In this document: one piece after another, positions 1 to 8,220 of the stretch
Numbering within the stretch: the first letter of the stretch is position 1
Layout: each line of letters opens with the position of its first letter
Assembly (NCBI GenBank): GCA_026692885.1
Contig: JAPLNJ010000544.1
Coordinates: forward strand, 1-8,220
Direction of reading: 5' to 3'
DNA: 8,220 bases
DNA from: Planctomycetota bacterium
Lineage (GTDB): Bacteria; Planctomycetota; Planctomycetia; Pirellulales; Pirellulaceae
The notes under the pieces: model-generated
What the model was told of the DNA's origin: nothing
The model's input: only the letters and a program-made list of their open reading frames with translations
The model's database searches: none
Made by a program: the position numbers and the translations under genes

Positions 1-3000
1 GGTCCGCGTTGCGGCTCCAGAGTCAGGTCGGTATTGCCTCGATCGTTGACGGTGATCGTCAACTGGTCCGGGACGACCAGGTCGTCCAGGTCGCCCGAGT
101 TGTAATCCCGGTCTCCGCGATAGACCAAGCCTTGCAGGGCCGCGTTCAACTCGGCGAACGTGCCTTCGAACGTCATCGTCCGGTCGTTAGCCCCACTGCC
201 CACGTCGATCTTGAAGGTGGCACTGACCGGCCGGTTCGTCAACGTCAGACTTCCCTGGACCACGCTCACGGTCACCAGTCCCAGCCAGTCGGGATCGTAC
301 GGTTGATCGATGTCGGCGATCGCCAGCTGCGGCAGACCGTCCGGGATGGTCGTCACGGCGGCCGTTGTACCGCCGGCGCCGTTGGCGTTCAGCGTGCCTG
401 CCAGACCGCTCTTGAACACGACCGTAAACGGACCGCCTAGGATGCCCAACGCAGTCGCGCTGCCGGCGCCCAGCAAGGCATCCAGACTGGCCTGGACCTT
501 GGCTTGCGTGTACGGGAAGGTCAGCGTCTGGGGGGCGCCCCCGGTATCCAAATTCACGCTGCCGGCCGCACCGGTCAGCCACAGGGTACGCACCGCGTGC
601 CCCGCACCGTCCTGCAGCGTCGTCGGCCTCACCGTGCCGCCTGCCAAGGAACTCGTGACGGTCGGTTGCGGTTGATTGCCCAGCAGCCCATTGAACGTGA
701 CCGAGAACAGCCGGTCCGAGCGGAACGCCACCAGCGCGTTGCCCGTCCCAAACAGACCGTCGAGGGCGTTCTGGATATTGGCGGCCATCAGGTTCGGCGC
801 GCCATTCCAGGCGATCGCTCCCGTGGTCAGATTGCTGCCGTAGGTCAGCGTGAACGAACCGCCGCTGACCGTGGAGTCGAACGTCAACAGCTGCGTTTCG
901 TTGGTGCCGCCGTCGACATAGGTTTGCACCTGCGCCAAGCCTGGGGTCGCCGTCGCCCCGAGCGTCGGGACGTCCACATTAGCCCGCCCCGTGTGGAACA
1001 CGACCATGAAGAATCCGGTGTTGGCGCCCCAGACCGAGACGTTGTTCGGCTGGAGGGCTGCGATCGTCCGCAGATAGGTTTGCACTTGCAACGCCGTCAA
1101 ACTGGTGGCCGGGCCGTTGAGCGATCCCGTCGCGGGCGCTCCGTTATAGGAGAGATTGAACGTGCTTCCCGCCGGGCCGACCAGAATCACAAACTGGACC
1201 TCGTTCCCGGCCCCGTCCTGCAGCGTCAGAGGCGTGATTGTGCCAGCACCGCTGGGGGGGCTCGTGACGGTCGCCGTCACCTGCGGGACATTCGCGTCGG
1301 CCAACTCACCGCGCAGGGTGACCGTGTACTGCCGCACCGTCCCCGTCCACGAACGCAGCGCCACCACGACGTTGACTACGCCGTTCGTATCGAGCAGCGC
1401 ACTCAACGCGGTCTGGATCTTCGTCGCCAGCACGCTGGGATCCGCATCCCAATCGACCGTCGCCGTCACCCCGCCGCCGTAGCTGAGCGTGAACGTCGTG
1501 ATCGCGCCGCCGCTGGTGTCGAGGGTTAACTGCTGCACCTCGCTGTACCGGCCGGCCAGCGTGAGGTTGATATCCTCGTTGACACTAACCGCATCCGGAC
1601 CTTGTACCGCCGGGGCGTCTTGCACCGGGTTCACCGTGATCGCGATCACGCGCGTCGCGGTCAAGGCCGCTAGTGGATCCGTCGGCGTACCGACGTTGCC
1701 CAAGTCGCTGATCGTCACCGTCAACGGATCCGGCGTGACCCCATCGTCGGGATCGCCCGAGTTGTAGTTCGGATCCGGCCGATACACCAAGCCTTGCAGC
1801 GCCGTGTTCAACTCGACCAGCAAGCCATGAAACACCAGTGCCCGATCCTGCAACAATTCAATCGCGAACGTGGCGCTGACGGGCGGAGAAGTCAGGCTGA
1901 GCGAGCCGTGCACCACAGTCAACGTCACCTGTCCCAGCCAATCGGGATCGTAGGGCTGATCCGGATCGGCGACGGTGATGACCGGGAGGCCCGGGCTGGA
2001 CGAGGCGACGGTCGCCGTCGTCAAACCGATACCCGCCGCGACCAGCGGCGTGACCGTGGTCCCGGCCAAGAAGTGATTGAACACGATGGTGAACGGGCCA
2101 CCCTGCGGGCCCAAGACGGTCACGTACGGCTGGCTGTTGACGTTATCCCAGAGGGCCGGTATCAACTGCAGCGCGGTCTGAAGCGCCGCCAGCGAGTACG
2201 GCGACGCGAACGTGGTCACCTGGTTGCCGTACGACAACGTGACGGTTCCGCCTAGCGTGCCGCCCAACGTCAGCGTTTGGACTGCATTCCCGCTGCCCTG
2301 CTGAGCCGTCGCGGCCACGGGCGCACTTCCGTCGAGCGTGGAATTGACCACCGTCAACTGCGGGAGGTCGCTGTTGGCCAGGGTGCCCGTGAACGTGATC
2401 GTGTACGTGTTGGGGGCCAGCAGCGACTGGGCCACGAGGGCATTGCCCGCGCCGAACATCGTGGGCGCCGTCAACGCGGCCTGGATGTTGGCGGCCAGCG
2501 TGGCGGGAGTCGCGCTCCAGGTGATGTTGGCCGTTGTCCAGGTCGTGCTGCCGAACTGCAGTTGGAAGACACCCGCGGTGGTGGCGCCGTCAAACGTCAA
2601 CGCCTGCACCTCGTCCAAACCGCCGCCGTCCGTGACCAGGCCCACGATTGCCGTGGCCCCGCCCGTGAAACCGGTGCTGAGCGGCCGGATGTTCTTGTTG
2701 CCCAAGGTGCTTCCGAACACGATTGTGAAGGGTCCGCCCGTGGCGCCCAGCACGGCCACCTTGCCGCTCAGCGGCGCAGGCAGCCCGGCGACCACCTTCG
2801 CGACCGTCAGCGGTGCCGCGCTGGAGAAAGACTGCGCGGCACCAGACGTCACGGTACCAAGCGGCAGTACAGTACTGCCGTCGCCGTCATCGTAGGACAG
2901 TGTCAGCGTGCCGTCGGCCGTGCCGGCCAGGGTCAGCGTCTGCACCTCATTCCCGGTGCCGTTCAGCACGGTGGACGGAATCACCGTGGGCGCGGCGCCC

Positions 3001-6000
3001 GTCAGCAACGCACTGCTGGCCGTCAACTGCGGCAGATTCGCATTCGCCAATGCGTTCTGGAAGGCGATCGTGTAGACATTGCTCGACGGCGACGCCACCA
3101 GCGTATTAGTCGCTCCGAAGATCGCGTCGAGGGCGGCCTGGATGTTGGTGATGAGCGTACTCGCCGTGCCGCTCCAGGTGATGTCGCCCGTGGTCAGGTT
3201 GCTGCCGAAGGTCAGCGTGAACGTGCCGCCGGTGATCACGCCGCCCAAGGTCAACTGCTGAACTTCGCTACGGGCGCCGCCGTCGAACACAGGGGTGACC
3301 GTGGCCGAAGTGGCGCCGCTCACGCCGACCCCCAGCAGCGACACATTCGTGCCGGCCAGAGGAACGCCGTTGAACACGATGCTGTAGGGGCCGCCGTTGG
3401 CCCCGATGACAGTCACCTTGCCGTTCAGAGCGGGGATCGTATTCAGATTGTTCTCTACCGAACCCGTGGCCCCAGTCCCGCCCGACGCGAGCAGGCTTGC
3501 GTACGAACCGGTAATCACGGGGATCGCGGAGCTGGCGTTCGCTCCGCTGTACGACAGGCGGAAACTCCCGCTGGTGCCGCTGACCGCAAGCAGCTGCACC
3601 TCGTTGCCGGTGCCTTCGGTCACGGTGTCCACCGTCATTGCCCCGCCCGCGAGCCCGGCGATGTTCGCCGTCAACTGCGTCAGGTTCGCGCTGCCCAAGC
3701 CGTTCTGGAACGTGATCGTGTACACCGTAGGCGAAGACGAGGCCACCAGCGTGTTGCCCGCCCCGAAAACCGTATTGAGGGCGTTCTGGATACTGGTAAC
3801 CAGCGTGGCGGGCGTGATGTTCCAAGGGATACTTACGGTGGTCAGATTGCCGCCGTAGGTCAGCGTAAATCCACCGCCGTTGACCGTGGGAGCGAAGGTC
3901 AACCGCTGCACCTCGTTCAGGCCCCCACCATCGACGCTGGTGGCCACGGTCGCCGTCGGTGCGTTGGACGCAGTGGCGCCCACGAGCGGCACGTAGCTGC
4001 CGGTCAAGGCGTTCCCGAACACGAGGGTGAACGGGCCGCCGATCGGGCCGACCACATCCACGTTGCCGTTCAAGGCCGCGATGGAGTTCAGGTGCGCCAG
4101 CACCTGTTCGGCGGTCGGCGCAATCCCCGTGACATAGGTCGACAGCACGGGCGCCGCGGTGTACGTCAGGGCCGTGGCGGCCGAGCCGCTTACGCCCTGG
4201 TACGACAGCGTGATCGTGCCGCCATTTGTCCCGCCCAAGGTCAGCGTTTGGACGGCGTTTCCTCGGCCCTCCGCGAGTGTCGACGTGGCGACGCTGGGCG
4301 CGGCTCCGGTCAACGGCTTGGTCGTCGAACTGGACGCCGTCAACTGCGGGAGATTGGCGTCCGTCAGCGTGCCTTGGAACGTGATCGTATAGACAGTGCT
4401 GGACTGCGAAGCCACCAGTGTATTCCCGGCGCCGAAAATGCCATCCAGGCCCGTCTGTAGGTTGGCGACCAGCGTGAGCACGTTCGGCGTGACATCCCAG
4501 ACGATGTTCGCCGTCGTCAGGTTGCCGCCGTAGGTCAACGTGAACGCACCCCCATCGACCGAGGGGTCAAACGTGACCGTTTGCACCTCGTTGCGGCGGC
4601 CGGCAAACGCCAGGATCGAGTCCTCATTGACATTGGCGCCCGCCGAAGCCGGCACGGTCAAGGTCGGCGGATCCTGCTTGGGATTCACCGTGATCGGGAT
4701 TGTGGCCCGCGCGATGAAGACCGGCGTGCCGAACACGATATCGGTGTAGCTCAGGTCGTCGACATGGACGGTCAGCAAGTCCGGCCGGACGGGATCCAGT
4801 GGATCGCCCGTGTCTTGATCCCCGGAGTTGTAGTGTGGCTTGCCTTGGTATCGGATGCCGTTCAAGGCGGCGTTCAGAGAGTCCAGACTACCTTGGAAGA
4901 CCACCGTATCGGTCCCATCACCGCTGACCGACGTCAGGTTCGCCAAGGCCGTGCTGGGCAGCGTGATCGTCCCATACTCGGCCGCCAAGGTCACCTCACC
5001 CAGCCAGTTCGGGTCGTAGACCAGCAAGCCGATGCCGGTCCCCAGCATGCTCCGCGCGTCCACGTCGAAAATCTGGATCTGCGGCAGCGTCACCGTCGGC
5101 GCCGGCCCCGTGCCCCGGTTCTCGTCCAACGACAGGGCCCCCGGCACGGTGACGATGGCCGGGACGTCGTTCTTGGGATTCACCGTGATCGTGACCGTGG
5201 CGTCGGCGTTCGAGAGCAGCCCCGCCACCAGCGGCCGGTAGCTGAACATGTCCGTGCCGTTGAAGTCCGGGTCGGGCTGGTACGTGAACAAGCCGTTCGA
5301 CTTGAACGTCAGCTTCCCGTGCAGCGGCGGGACGGTGGGCGTAAGCTTCGCCTCTCTGGGCAGGCCGGGGGTATCGTTGTCCAGAACGCTCTTCCACGTC
5401 GTCCCGTCCACCGTCAGTAACGTGTCCTCGTCCACCGAATACGCGTCGGGCAAGCCATCCACGCTGTTCGGCGTTGGCGGCGTGCCGACGATGATCTGCC
5501 ATGGATAGTCTTCCACCTCGCCCCCGATCATGATCCCATCCACCGGGGAGTTCCCGGCGGGGCTGATGCGGAAGCGGGCGTACGTGTTAATATTCGCCGG
5601 CCCGGTCGCCCAGCCGGTCGTCAGGGCGCCCAAGTTGATGTCGATGACGTTCGCGCCCGGCAGCAGATAGTAACTCTTCAGGATCTGCTCGCTGGTGTCG
5701 AACACGTTGTTATGGTTGAAGTCGACCCAGGCATCCAACAAGCCCAAGTCCGACGCCGTGACCGTGATCCAGGTGTGGGTGGTCCCCGAATTGAAGACCG
5801 TGGGGAGCACCCAGGGCGTCCCGGCCGAGTCCTGTCCCAAGTCGTACCAGAAGGCCACGCCGTCCTCGTCGCTGTCCGCAGCGGGCGGCACCAGGCCATT
5901 GTTTTCCCCAACCACCGAAGTGCCCAGATAGGCAGCGCCGGGCAGAATCTCGTGGCGCGCGCCGTTGCTGGCCAGCAGCGTTTGATAGGTGTCCGGGGCG

Positions 6001-8220
6001 TCGCCGAAATCCATGGCGACCGTGCCCAGAATGATCGTGAACTGCGTCAGGCCGCTGGCCTGGTTCGGCTGCAACTTGTTGCCGGCCCGGTCCAGGATGG
6101 CGTAGGTCCCGCTATTGGCCAACGTGATCTGGTACAGGCTGTTGGGCTCCCAGACGCCAGACAGAGGCGTCAGCACCAGGATGTTGTTGGTGCTGCTGTA
6201 GCCCCAGGTGTAGTCCACGCCCGACTTCAGGAGCGTGCCATCCTGCGTGAGCTGGATCGACTTGTCGAGCACCGTGTTCCCGTCCACGCCCGTCCCTTCG
6301 TTCGGGAGCGGGCTGCCGGGGCCGTCGGCCAGCAGCAGCGTAAAGCTGTCGAACAAGCCCGTCGGCTCGTGGATCACCGTCAGGTTGGGATCGGTATCCA
6401 GACCTTGTGCGTCGTTGTCGAGGGGGTTCAGCATCTGCAGGTAGGGCCCCAGCGTGTCGACCCGGTCCACCGCACCGAGGTCCTTGCTGGTGTTCGCCCC
6501 ACCGCCGCTGCTGGAACCGGACGAGTTCCGACGCAGTTGACCGTACACGTCCCGGTCGGGCGCAAAGATTTGCGAGGGGCCCATGTCCAGTTGCGTGCGG
6601 AAGCCGCCCCAGTCGAAGGCGTCGCTGGGATTGGAGGCCCGTTCGGACAACATGTCCAGCGCACTGTCCACCGCCTCCGAGCCGGGCTGCAAGTAATAGT
6701 TGCCCAAGGGCGTAGCGCCCGGGTTTACAAACAACGTATTGGCCGACACAACATCGCTCGCGGCCTGACCCGCACCGGTCACATTGTTGATGTTGGCCTG
6801 GAACAGATTCCAGCCTTCGACGGGCCAGACGTCGGCGCCAAAGCTGATCCCCGTCTGCGTATAGCCGATGATGTTGTTCAGGATCGAGGGACTGGCGTTG
6901 TTGCTCACCGCCACCCCCGTGCCCTGGCCGCCGAAGGCGTAGAAGTTGGCAAACCCCAGACCGGTAAAGGCCGTTCCGGCACGGAGCCGAATCGTCTTGA
7001 TCAGGGCTGCCGCGAAGCTGAAGCTCCAGGTGGCAGCTTTTCCGTTTCCCGCGCCGGTTGACGCGGGAGTCAGTATCTTCGTCCCAATCACGGCGCCGGT
7101 CGCGTCCAGGGCCTCGATCGTCCAGCTTTCGCTGCCGTCGATATCGAGGATCTGCGCGGACGCCGCTGCTGTCGCTACGGTATAAGTGATCAGCAGATCC
7201 GGATTGTTCGCCGCCGTGCCGTAGCCGGGCGTATTGTCCGTCAAGAAGAACTGGCCAATGCTCGGCTGGCCCGCATTCAGCGAGTCGTTTCCCGAAACTC
7301 CGGAGTTATTGTAGAACGCAAACGCATCCACTACGGGAGGGCTGCCCCAAGCCTGATCACCCACCTCGGCCAGCAGCGGGAACGTGCCGTCGGAGTAGCT
7401 GAAAGAGACCCCATTGATCGCGGCAAACTGGTTGGAAATCGGCAACCCTTCGACTGCCGTCCCCCCAGGAATTGAGCTGAAGTTCACGAAGCTCTGGAAG
7501 GCCGCGTTCGCGCCGATAATCGTGTTGTTCACGACGCGTACGAAGGGCACGTCGCCCAACGGTTTATTGTTGGGGTACGCCAGATTATTGGTATTATCTC
7601 CGGCGATATTGATCGCCGTCTGCTTGAAGTTGGTGATGATGTTGTTCACGATCACCGCACCGGGAGCCAGCCGGTCCGTGTTCAGTGTGGGGAACGCGAT
7701 CGGCGGTGCCGGGTGCGGCAGATTCGTCACCAGAGTCGGAGTCCCCGGCAGGCTCATGCCGCCCATCATGACGTTCCGATCCCCCGGACTCACGTTGACC
7801 CCGGTCAGGGATGCGTAGGTGATCGTGTTCGAATCGATAATCGTCTCGCCCTGGTCCCGGAACCGGTTGAGATCGCCGCTGCGGTTGTACATCTCGATGG
7901 GGTCGCCCTTGACCACCACCGAGCCGGTAACGCTGGCTCCCTGCGTCGCGGTGATGGTCACCAAAGCGTCGTAGGGCAAGTAATTCGCCACCGGCGTGAT
8001 GTTGAACGTCGCCGAGTAGGACCCCCTCTTGATCGTTACCGACGCAGATACCGTGGCCTGGGTGGTGTCCGAACTGCTGAGCGTGACCACCGTGTCTACA
8101 GCAGCCACTGCCGACAGACTGACGGTGCCGACCACCACGTTGGCTGTGCCGTTGCGGTACACGGTCGCGGGGGCGCCAATGGTCAGGCTCAGGGCGGCGG
8201 CGGCCGGCGGCGGCTCCGCC
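1..8220 (-). CDS. Giant multidomain secreted/surface protein, internal fragment (both ends missing)
   Basis: One minus-strand frame (complete codons 8219 to 3) stays open through 2739 codons, and recognisable protein domains follow one another in that same frame throughout, so this is the real gene. Order: Ig-like domain, interrupted beta-helix, Ig-like domain, GEVED domain, cadherin-like domain, then three cadherin/VCBS-like modules separating two arrays of alternating EVQ-type repeats. The protein is rich in Thr, Gly, Ala, Asn, Asp and Val, poor in Lys, and I read no cysteine, as expected of a large extracellular beta protein. Start codon, signal peptide, anchor or sorting signal and stop all lie outside the window; in-frame ATGs occur but none sits at a domain start with a gene boundary. 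Such proteins are usually thought to act in adhesion, cell envelope or biofilm matrix; that role is inferred. No catalytic motif was recognised. The planctomycete-like style is an inference from domain combination. Confidence 0.93.
3..335 (-). other. Cadherin/VCBS-like module C3 (cut by the window edge)
   Basis: Residues 2629-2739. PQLAIADIDQPYDPDWLGL, VTVSVVQGSLTLTNRPVSAT, a FKIDVGSGANDRTMTFEGTF stretch, AELNAALQGLVYRGDRDYNS, GDLDDLVVPDQLTITVNDRG and then the window edge. It matches C2 almost position for position, with a short GSGAND addition where C2 has LLQD. The ITVNP closing strand expected from C1 and C2 should lie just beyond position 1, probably followed by another VNED linker and EVQ array. 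Confidence 0.78.
336..1544 (-). repeat. Repeat array 2: two alternating A-B pairs of EVQ-type repeats
   Basis: Residues 2226-2628. Units: A5 1206-1544 (SEVQQLTLDTSG), B5 903-1205 (NEVQFVILVGPAG), A6 600-902 (NETQLLTFDSTVSGG), B6 336-599 (HAVRTLWLTGAAG). A6 keeps the full A consensus (FTLTYGSNLTT, NIQNALDGLFGTGNALVA). A5 is diverged: the 'FGxGNTLVA' phrase is replaced by a longer stretch with NGVVNVVVALRSW. B5 keeps the TFNLSY strand and has WGANTGFFMVVF where other B units have GGPFTIVF. B6 is the shortest unit, about 88 residues, with a degraded opening (HAVRTL) but an intact LGGPFTVVFKSGLAG. All B units here lack the long loop found in B1-B3. The array ends by running directly into C3. Confidence 0.82.
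1545..1616 (-). other. Linker with VNED motif leading into repeat array 2
   Basis: Residues 2202-2225: APAVQGPDAVSVNEDINLTL then AGRY before SEVQ. It mirrors the linker after C1 (VNEDSILAF, AGRR, NEVQ), confirming that the join between a C module and the first A unit is itself conserved. Confidence 0.6.
1617..1991 (-). other. Cadherin/VCBS-like module C2
   Basis: Residues 2077-2201. LPVITVADPDQPYDPDWLGQ opens the module, followed by VTLTVVHGSLSLTSPPVSAT, LVFHGLLVELNTALQGLVYR, PDPNYNSGDPDDG, LTVTISDLGN and a closing ITVNPVQDAP. This is the standard 'hGsLsl....f.G.l.elN.aLqgl.Y.Pd.nyn' core of bacterial cadherin/VCBS-like domains. It stands directly after the last B unit of array 1, with no linker, and is followed by a VNED linker and array 2. 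Very close to C3 in both protein and DNA. Confidence 0.8.
1992..4592 (-). repeat. Repeat array 1: four alternating A-B pairs of EVQ-type repeats
   Basis: Residues 1210-2076. Units on the plus-strand scale: A1 4260-4592, B1 3918-4259, A2 3606-3917, B2 3270-3605, A3 2952-3269, B3 2616-2951, A4 2289-2615, B4 1992-2288. Each opens with (N/S/D)(E/A)VQ. A units (about 104-111 residues) read GGxFTLTYGxNLTTxxIxW, then NIQxALxxxFGxGNTLVA, YTITFQxxL, ANLPQLTA. B units (99-114 residues) read NEVQTLTLxGTxxGTxTLSY, a variable loop, a helix-like xVxxxLxxIPALxGKV, then GGPFTIVFxxxLAG. The two types share the same plan (EVQ strand, strand pair, amphipathic stretch, GN/GK-V strand, TIxF strand), so A and B probably descend from one unit. 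Similar EVQ/GGPYTVTF repeats are known in planctomycete giant proteins and some phage structural proteins. Probable role: rigid stalk. A4 is aberrant (FQLQFGSTTWTTANITW and an extra APTM before FGAGN). Confidence 0.85.
4593..4670 (-). other. Linker with VNED motif leading into repeat array 1
   Basis: Residues 1184-1209: a PPTLTVP strand then AGANVNEDSILAFAGRR, which runs straight into the first NEVQ repeat. The same construction (VNEDINLTLAGRY before SEVQ) stands before array 2, showing that 'C module, VNED linker, EVQ array' is a repeated unit. The acidic NED is the usual calcium-linker motif of cadherin-like tandem domains. Confidence 0.6.
4671..5165 (-). other. Cadherin/VCBS-like module C1
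   Basis: Residues 1019-1183. Opens with a VPGALSLDENRG strand, then FDVDARSM, VYDPNWLGEVTLAAEYGTIT, GDGTDTVVFQGSLDSLNAAL, NGIRYQGKPHYNSGDQD, LTVHVDD and ITVNPKQD. The sequence 'v.fqGsl..lNaaL.gi.Y....nYNsGd....ltv.v.D' matches VCBS/cadherin-like domains of bacterial surface proteins. It is the most divergent of the three C modules in the window: it has YDPNWLG in place of the DQPYDPDWLG of C2 and C3 and is about 40 residues longer than C2. It immediately precedes the four-pair repeat array. Confidence 0.75.
5166..5468 (-). other. Cadherin-like / Big_9-type Ig domain
   Basis: Residues 918-1018. It opens with NSVDGLPDAYSVDEDTLLTV, carries VLDNDTPG, HGKLTF, GLFTYQPDPDFNGTD, MFSYRP, and closes with ATVTITVNPKND. 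The 'vdEDt...vLdND....hG.l.....G.f.Y.P...fnGtD.F.Y......a.vtitV.pvND' pattern is the classic tandem cadherin-like repeat of bacterial giant adhesins (VCBS/Big_9/tandem-95 type). The VDED, DND and NPKND motifs are the residues expected to hold calcium between successive domains. It joins the GEVED domain to the C1 module with almost no linker. Confidence 0.85.
5484..6011 (-). other. GEVED domain
   Basis: Residues 737-912. The domain begins with the typical DFGDAPDTYQTLLASNGARH, continues with DSDEDGVAFWYDLG, and ends with the defining GEVEDYPWQIIVG (GEVEDY at 5505-5522). Between them lies LDAWVDFNHNNVFD, an Asp/Asn-rich loop (DFNHNNVFD, 5697-5723) of the kind that usually binds calcium in this family, then YARFRISP. 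Length, about 176 residues, fits the family. GEVED domains occur in large secreted bacterial proteins next to adhesion or cadherin-like domains; their exact biochemical role is not settled. All canonical landmarks are present, so I regard it as intact. Confidence 0.88.
6024..6428 (-). other. Bacterial Ig-like domain (Big_5/SbsA-like)
   Basis: Residues 598-732. After a DNDAQGLDTDPN lead, the domain shows VIHEPTGLFDSFTLLLADG, then GVDGNTVLDKSIQLTQDGTL, GVDYTWGYSSTNNILVLTPL, PNSLYQITLANSGTYAILD, RAGNKLQPN and a final FTIILG strand. The order 'sV.l..dG..l..g.dYt..y....n.l.LTP...w....Y.ItL....i.D.aGN.L' is the hallmark of SbsA/Big_5 Ig-like domains, which act as spacers or substrate-presenting modules in secreted proteins. 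It directly precedes the GEVED domain with only a few residues between. Confidence 0.65.
6429..6527 (-). other. Ser/Gly-rich linker after the beta-helix
   Basis: Residues 565-597. A flexible NSSGSSSGGGANTSKD stretch is followed by LGAVDRVDTLGPYLQML. The 'kDlGAvdRvD' phrase commonly follows beta-helix regions in planctomycete giant proteins, so this is probably the conserved end of that region, not an independent domain. Confidence 0.5.
6528..7907 (-). other. Right-handed parallel beta-helix-like region (split by an insertion)
   Basis: Residues 105-564. Asn-rich rungs recur: ETIIDSNTITYASLTGVNV, APGAVIVNNIITNFKQTAI, VRVVNNTIIGANAAF and, after the insertion, NASPSILNNIIGYTQTGISF. The pattern of 'NN(T/I)I...' followed by a short strand is typical of PbH1-type beta-helix proteins. 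The region ends with NYYLQPGSEAVDSALDM, which matches the 'LxPGSPAIDAG' tail seen in proteins with a choice-of-anchor Q type ending, then DRDVYGQLRR, a closing phrase also common in planctomycete beta-helix proteins. Beta-helices of this kind often bind or cleave polysaccharides; no lyase or hydrolase active site is evident, so binding or structure is more likely. Residues 269-431 do not fit the helix pattern and are listed separately. Confidence 0.7.
6927..7415 (-). other. Probable beta-sandwich domain inserted within the beta-helix
   Basis: Residues 269-431. It starts near NGVSFSYSDGTFPLLAEVGD, loses the Asn-ladder pattern of the flanking helix, and runs through alternating strands including PDLLITYTVAT, AQILDIDGSESWTIEALD, a KAATWSFSF strand and IKTIRLRAGTAFTGLGFANF. 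It ends at YAFGGQG, immediately after which beta-helix rungs resume. The closing FANFYAF-type strand and the 'I(D)GSESWTIEA(L)D..G' core resemble jelly-roll or lectin-like domains of secreted bacterial proteins, but I cannot name a family. A carbohydrate-binding role is a guess from fold style and from its position protruding from a helix. Confidence 0.5.
7908..8219 (-). other. Pro/Ala-rich linker plus Ig-like beta-sandwich domain
   Basis: Residues 1-104 of the visible protein. The first nine residues (AEPPPAAAA) form a Pro/Ala linker encoded by a very GC-rich stretch. The rest alternates short hydrophobic strands and Ser/Thr/Asp turns: LSLTIGAPATVYRNGTANV near the start, a VTLSSSD strand-turn in the middle, an ATVSASVTI strand, FNITPVAN, and a closing VTGSVVVKGDP. 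This layout resembles bacterial Ig-like or CalX-beta-like domains that precede a beta-helix in large surface proteins. The exact family is not certain; the domain may begin further upstream, outside the window. Confidence 0.55.

Follow-up and report, generated by a model that had tools for sequence, protein, structure and literature searches.

How does a giant bacterial protein come to carry long runs of two alternating small domains between copies of a third? This question is raised by positions 1 to 8,220 of contig JAPLNJ010000544.1 from a Planctomycetota bacterium (Pirellulaceae; assembly GCA_026692885.1), the stretch of 8,220 nucleotides that is called the window throughout. According to the listing of open reading frames, this 8.2-kb (kilobase) window is a single minus-strand frame of 2739 amino acids (aa), open at both ends. 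From N to C terminus, the encoded protein consists of a stretch with no listed Pfam match, a GEVED domain, a Big_9/tandem-95-type module, a first C module (C1), a first array of units termed A and B (array 1), a C module, array 2 and a last C module cut by the window end. A sequence-only reading of this DNA had parsed the repeats as a C module, a 'VNED linker' and then an array of A-B pairs. Our analysis leads to a different parse: the window probably encodes part of a giant extracellular protein of the planctomycete type, in which a cadherin-like stalk carries A-B arrays inserted in frame inside its C modules, as side lobes for surface contact. Simple tandem repetition alone seems not to account for the growth of this protein, which also appears to have gained insertions in frame. 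Its planctomycete type rests on the source names of the relatives P0004, P0005 and P0015 and on PLA7 (G001), a Pirellulaceae genome.

The evidence that carries this reading comes from C modules that are not interrupted. In PLA7, a 10429-aa frame bears such modules, of about 150 aa each, as tandem, head-to-tail copies that start with E-D and contain a D-D motif; the 7480-aa frame next to it has 11 confident ones. The PLA7 modules closest to those of the window start like VDEDTELALPAFEVFDVDA, and the rest keep the E-D and D-D motifs but are more changed. C1 matched the uninterrupted PLA7 modules with up to 47% identity (expectation value, E, 2.2e-26). In the window protein, VNEDSILAFAG precedes array 1 and GLPVITVADPDQPYDPDWLG follows it, and a like arrangement was found at array 2 and at both complete arrays of P0015. 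When the flanks of each window array were joined without the array, they aligned with the uninterrupted PLA7 modules across the junction, with 40% (E 8.6e-35) and 44% (E 7.6e-37) identity. By sequence, both arrays enter after the first strand (VNED...) and before the second (..V.D.DQPYDPDWLG). The supposed linker thus appears to be the first strand of a C module whose remainder follows the array and, judged from these alignments, each array is therefore nested within one C module. The order 'C module, VNED linker, then (A-B)n' was accordingly a mis-parse. The three C modules located by the sequence-only reading are real, but two of them had been drawn too short, with their first strands (4596-4670 and 1548-1616) taken as linker.

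The same comparison bears on plain tandem duplication, in which independent C modules, linkers and A-B arrays would stand in a row and the block of C module, linker and array would have been duplicated at a higher level. Such a history would produce the C-array-C-array order, and this higher-level repetition, claimed from the start, is indeed real and is also present in one relative, P0015. However, what would have to be a linker is exactly how uninterrupted C modules start (VDEDTELALPAFEVFDVDA, for example); these modules align across both junctions, and in P0009 an A-B pair sits at a different point of the C module, after DVDA. We therefore regard tandem duplication as quite improbable. C modules also host further insertions, since one PLA7 C module (L075, frame residues ~7521-7697) carries a different domain in a loop other than the A-B array site. 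We take this extra domain to be an F5/8-type-C-like or LamG-like sandwich; stretches similar to it come after C-module starts in P0009. Against curated Pfam-type models the C modules stayed below cut-off: C1 had no relevant match and joined C2 had none, and Cadherin_4 reached 18.3 bits on joined C3 and 24.4 bits on the joined P0015 module, both under its cut-off of 25.1.

What, then, are the inserted units? The window contains six A and six B units, ordered (A-B)x4 in array 1 and (A-B)x2 in array 2, and its pairs measure 225, 216, 218, 209, 214 and 190 residues, all as the sequence-only reading had it (about 190-225 residues). A and B are two branches within one domain family. In the window, mean identity is 48% among A units, 40% among B units and 27% between A and B; the largest A-B value is 33%, and the smallest A-A and B-B values are 37% and 33%. 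Among the 924 splits of the twelve units into six and six, none was as good as the observed one, which is counted twice with labels swapped. A tree of 92 units, taken from 12 proteins, placed 38 B units from nine proteins on a single branch (support 99/97). Of the 37 A units from B-bearing proteins, 33 clustered as well (87/91, a branch that was not starred and included one generic unit); the four outside were lone units, three from P0004 and one from P0009. Generic units were placed around both groups. The tree was built from few columns and with a bootstrap not fully settled, leaving out units shorter than 80% of the profile and limiting P0010 to five units; it is a partial check only, because the profiles that gave the A and B labels had themselves been built up from the window units. 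A and B clustering together without separation, which was to speak against the two-tier repeat, was thus not what the tree returned, and the mean identities and the split test likewise separate A from B.

The order of the units was then compared among relatives. A confidently called B unit was present in 17 of the 54 proteins examined, and the 65 direct neighbours in these 17 were AB in 37 cases, BA in 15, BB in 12 and AA in one. In nine proteins, which we picked by hand as the clearest of the 17, 46 of 51 neighbouring pairs alternated, compared to a shuffle mean of 25.7, and none of 20000 shuffles reached this number. These nine contain 23 multi-unit blocks, of which 20 begin with A and 21 end with B. 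Random A/B order in homologues, named beforehand as a refutation, was therefore not found. A and B distances correlated over 31 pairs (r 0.62, 0 of 5000 permutations) as well as within proteins (r 0.82, 39 of 5000 permutations); within the window alone there was no co-duplication signal (r 0.04, 308 of 720 permutations). Strict alternation, on the other hand, could not be upheld, given the 12 BB and one AA neighbours: P0015, the two-tier relative, has ABB in both complete arrays, and further exceptions are ABB in P0005, ABBB in G399, lone units in P0004 and B-only blocks in P0021. A-B alternation strongly predominates without being a rule, and the pair, proposed as the unit of duplication, is the usual unit but not an obligatory one.

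A structure prediction offers a possible reason for this preference. The AlphaFold model of A2-B2, the kind of check proposed along with the original parse, reached a mean predicted local distance difference test (pLDDT) score of 91.8 and a predicted template modelling (pTM) score of 0.81, and the high pTM points to A and B packing together as a single body. Packing of this kind would explain why the pair is the usual insert and why blocks mostly start with A and end with B.

The units do have a named relative. The A-B profile matched gp23 of known structure (PDB 9d93) with an E of 2.8e-22, and the A/B domain, a small alpha/beta domain, has the fold of the decoration-type (Bxb1 CTE-like) domains on tailed-phage structural proteins. 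In mycobacteriophage Bxb1, such domains occur on the tail tip cage protein gp23 (9d93), at the capsid C terminus (9d9x, 9d9w) and in the portal/connector assembly (9d94); Patience 8giu is also among the nearest decoration-type structures. Excerpts of PMC13252515 mention a protein with 'three additional CTE-like domains', and we infer that this protein is gp23 and that 'CTE-like' is the name for this fold. In contrast to the Bxb1 domains, those of the window stand in a giant cellular-type protein, as ordered A-B pairs nested in C modules, and B is a lineage of its own. PHROG 1260 (minor tail protein) was matched by 11 of 15 A-B pairs (best E 2.1e-6) and by the window protein (E 1.9e-15), but the best-matching stretch is confined to positions 49-115 of a profile with 320 positions, and the window is without phage genes. 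A tblastn search with one A-B pair returned four records from two phages, minor tail proteins at E 1e-3 to 1e-4; with array 1, no phage record matched at E 1e-5. Five loci on viral contigs were examined with the A and B profiles only. Pfam gave no match judged relevant on the 15 A-B pairs. The window protein itself does not qualify as a phage tail protein, being a single frame that contains GEVED, Big_9 and C modules and no phage structural genes.

A-B blocks are also found at other positions and in other host domains. P0006 and P0007 are 74% identical orthologues with five A-B pairs each, four of them at shared sites; each has one private pair whose site is empty in the partner, the presence/absence pattern at one site that is expected of a mobile element. 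Without the private pairs the host stretch is 71% identical (204/289). The shared pairs are 67-76% alike and the two private pairs 47%, and the private pair of P0006 most resembles pair a, at 60% to the copy in P0007 and 55% to the one in its own gene. A weaker case is an A-B site of P0002 that is empty in P0004 (81/150 identical across the join, 54%). P0004 also has a lone unit at a site seemingly empty in P0002, where the alignment is rough at the join. In P0021, an fn3 domain is split by B units: the joined flanks matched fn3 with an E of 2.5e-4 and 21.6 bits, below the cut-off of 25, and neither the right half alone nor a whole-protein scan gave a match there. Two other candidate hosts were discarded, a PPC domain for a P0004 block, as the joined flanks had no PPC match, and a peptidase-like domain in P0021, as the joined flanks had no Pfam match.

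We further scored empty sites over 21 blocks chosen by hand from ten proteins or frames, 20 with B units and one lone unit. The set excluded P0002 1572-2684 (long), P0004 1564-2187, P0005 2177-2372 and the third P0015 array (both cut), the proteins and loci P0003, P0016, P0017, P0020-P0022, P0029, P0033, P0047 and L002, and the PLA7-family loci of the E 1e-10 search apart from the 9734-aa frame of G399. Random blocks in the same hosts numbered 570, 30 for each of 19 blocks, as two P0015 blocks allowed no random placement. A loose rule accepted 15 of the 21 blocks but also 282 of the 570 random ones and was replaced by a stricter one. The strict clean-junction rule, chosen after the loose result out of eight settings, was satisfied by 11 of 21 blocks compared to 54 of 570 random blocks (binomial 8e-7, a calculation that ignores kinship among blocks); the lone-unit block, P0004 1385-1486, failed it. 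The observed value exceeded the random one in all eight settings, from 15/21 versus 49% in the loosest to 11/21 versus 9% in the strictest.

These sites also allow for a bolder interpretation, in which A-B is a mobile coding cassette that lacks its own transposase, with recombination or transposition placing in-frame copies of it in the loops of unrelated surface proteins. The cassette would either descend from the decoration domains of tailed phages or be shared with them, and would spread as an in-frame DNA unit among giant surface proteins of the planctomycete group; the pair would move because A and B pack as one body with ends close enough for a loop. The private pairs of P0006 and P0007 at different sites agree with this, as does the copy-and-insert-like similarity of the private P0006 pair to pair a of both genes. 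The varied hosts, namely cadherin-like C modules, an fn3 domain, what we take to be helix-like repeats and a presumably Calx-beta-like stretch, point the same way. However, no 8-mer is common to the left and right junctions of either window array and hence there is no simple sign of target duplication, the window holds no transposase, being a single frame, and occurrence is patchy. We consider a mobile cassette unlikely. If true, such a cassette would contribute folded domains as a mobile element while the host gene keeps working.

This patchiness was seen with the A-B profile, which matched at least 26 of 392 sampled planctomycete genomes at E 1e-3, mostly through generic units, and at least 52 of 241 genomes of PLA7's family at E 1e-10. 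Scanning with the A and B profiles covered loci L001-L053 and left out L086-L111; the matches in L001-L053 were mostly generic A-type units, and A-B pairs were seen in L001, L002, loci of those two genomes and G399. In G399, three A-type units are spaced alike in four long frames (L114-L117), with 446-447 aa from first to second; these frames are likely a paralogous family. Two places 36 kb apart in another genome (G027:C1:217513-217776 and 253682-253945) have identical scores and 905-aa frames, suggesting a recent gene duplication. P0008 (4658 aa, from a metagenome-assembled genome (MAG) named Moraxellaceae) has 20 A-type units in several clusters and no B. A MAG contig named Akkermansia muciniphila, a name that may reflect a binning error, has widely spaced A-type units in one or two frames of more than 6400 aa (L003, L004). 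P0011 (2767 aa), possibly from a eukaryote, has 25 A-type matches, many of half length, and PF07974 and PF25024 domains, which we take to be of the EGF type.

The empty sites could conversely be deletions of whole pairs from arrays that are ancestral. Generic arrays are vertically stable in nine orthologues, one of which has two units fewer, and the 92-unit tree cannot distinguish gain from loss, both of which would suit this history. But blocks lie at differing points of the same host module type (the window and P0015 versus P0009) and the PLA7 C modules are without any A or B unit, the ABAB block of PLA7 lying elsewhere in the 10429-aa frame; ancestral arrays would therefore need many clean losses, and we find them doubtful.

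Several results weigh against nested insertion and the role proposed for it. An AlphaFold model of C3 with ABAB (545 aa, 22 alignment rows) reached a pLDDT of 76 and a pTM of 0.38 and left the VNED strand unplaced (residues 1-32 below 50), so that the nested fold is unconfirmed by structure. Ten of the 21 blocks failed the strict rule, and random blocks often 'close' under the loose rule because the hosts are repetitive. The three protein searches gave no orthologue of the window protein with an empty site. Among nine planctomycete proteins of 5647-5848 aa that are orthologous to one another, eight carry seven generic units and one carries five, a near-unchanged set from which it follows that such arrays can stay stable for long. 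The ABB, lone and B-only blocks loosen the pairing, and adhesion is something that we infer for a protein whose two ends lie outside the window.

The features of the window are collected in Table 1. Besides the Big_9 match, NCBIfam tand_rpt_95 aligned to residues 928-1023 (E 1.2e-9, 38 bits, below its cut-off of 90). The N-terminal ~830 residues (5736-8219, minus strand) had no listed Pfam match; their asparagine-rich stretches (VVNNTIIG, SILNNIIGYTQ) give the impression of a right-handed parallel beta-helix. A 727-aa antisense frame on the plus strand (2277-4460) overlies array 1; as the third codon positions of the coding strand are 85% G+C, such a frame is expected and is not evidence of a gene.

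Table 1 Domains and repeat units of the window protein, in N- to C-terminal order (window positions).
Feature	Residues	Positions	Strand	Basis
Protein frame	2739 aa	3..8219	-	Runs off the window at either end; holds all domains listed
GEVED domain	829-906	5502..5735	-	Pfam PF20009, E 3e-6, 28.4 bits (cut-off 24.4)
Big_9 / tandem-95-type Ig-like (immunoglobulin-like) module	925-995	5235..5447	-	PF17963, E 1.7e-7, 32.5 bits (cut-off 23.6)
C1, uninterrupted C module	1015-1183	4671..5177	-	Near end-to-end alignment with PLA7 tandem uninterrupted C modules
C2, putative first strand (...VNEDSILAFAG)	1184-1208	4596..4670	-	Aligns with start of uninterrupted C modules
A1	1209-1319	4263..4595	-	Unit alignment; hidden Markov model
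B1	1320-1433	3921..4262	-	Unit alignment
A2	1434-1537	3609..3920	-	Unit alignment; AlphaFold model A2-B2
B2	1538-1649	3273..3608	-	Unit alignment; AlphaFold model A2-B2
A3	1650-1755	2955..3272	-	Unit alignment
B3	1756-1867	2619..2954	-	Unit alignment
A4	1868-1976	2292..2618	-	Unit alignment
B4	1977-2076	1992..2291	-	Unit alignment
C2, remainder after array 1 (GLPVITVADPDQPYDPDWLG...)	2077-2201	1617..1991	-	Alignment with uninterrupted C modules
C3, putative first strand (...VNEDINLTLAG)	2202-2224	1548..1616	-	Aligns with start of uninterrupted C modules
A5	2225-2337	1209..1547	-	Unit alignment
B5	2338-2438	906..1208	-	Unit alignment
A6	2439-2539	603..905	-	
B6	2540-2628	336..602	-	
C3, remainder after array 2, truncated at window end	2629-2739	3..335	-	Alignment with uninterrupted C modules

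How does this arrangement relate to known systems? Fraser reportedly described in 2006 promiscuous Ig-like domains on phage structural proteins, which resemble the A and B units as small surface domains added to many unrelated carriers; the window units, however, differ in fold and lie inserted in other domains of bacterial-type proteins. The palindromic elements of Rickettsia, short stretches of DNA, insert in frame into existing coding genes. The in-frame insertion is shared, but an A-B pair encodes two folded domains, and the window junctions bear no sign of target duplication. A further likeness is to the giant planctomycete proteins with tandem-95 and cadherin-like repeats, described in Stieleria and in a survey of huge proteins (excerpts of PMC7717043 and PMC11573180): these too are giant and built from repeated cadherin-like modules, and the window protein has Big_9 and GEVED nearby. 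Its C modules differ in staying under curated cut-offs and in carrying nested arrays, which the excerpts of both papers do not mention for those giants. Searches of an open-licence library turned up no paper whose title or abstract opening describes a nested, paired arrangement inside cadherin-like modules. The fold is already known from phages and the kind of stalk from planctomycetes; what appears to be new is their nested, paired combination.

For the nested insertion favoured here, one insertion into a C module would have come first, followed by duplication of the unit of C module plus array, and the arrays may then have grown or shrunk mostly by whole A-B pairs. Anchored at both ends in one C module, an array would leave the stalk sideways as a lobe, and such lobes could enlarge the contact surface and perhaps bind weakly to glycans or neighbouring cells. 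A weak-binding role was proposed for exposed domains of other kinds, Ig-like and carbohydrate-binding ones, on the baseplates of mycobacteriophages (excerpts of PMC13252515). The Stieleria giants with cadherin-like and tandem-95 repeats were read from their domains as adhesion or glycosyl-hydrolase proteins (excerpts of PMC7717043), and Planctomycetota are named as the biggest contributor of huge proteins with Big_9, Cadherin_4/5 and Dockerin_1 (excerpts of PMC11573180). By analogy to these two sources, an adhesive or matrix role appears likeliest for the window protein.

The usual view is that giant surface proteins of bacteria become longer when whole domains are duplicated in tandem. In the present case, expansion appears to have proceeded at least partly through insertion in the middle of a domain, often of the same two-domain cassette. 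The fold of this cassette is that of a tailed-phage capsid and tail domain, which connects two surface systems that are seldom discussed together. The occupied and empty sites in near relatives provide a test set for the movement of protein domains as in-frame DNA units in bacteria, and stretches of such giant proteins that were unannotated gain an assigned fold.

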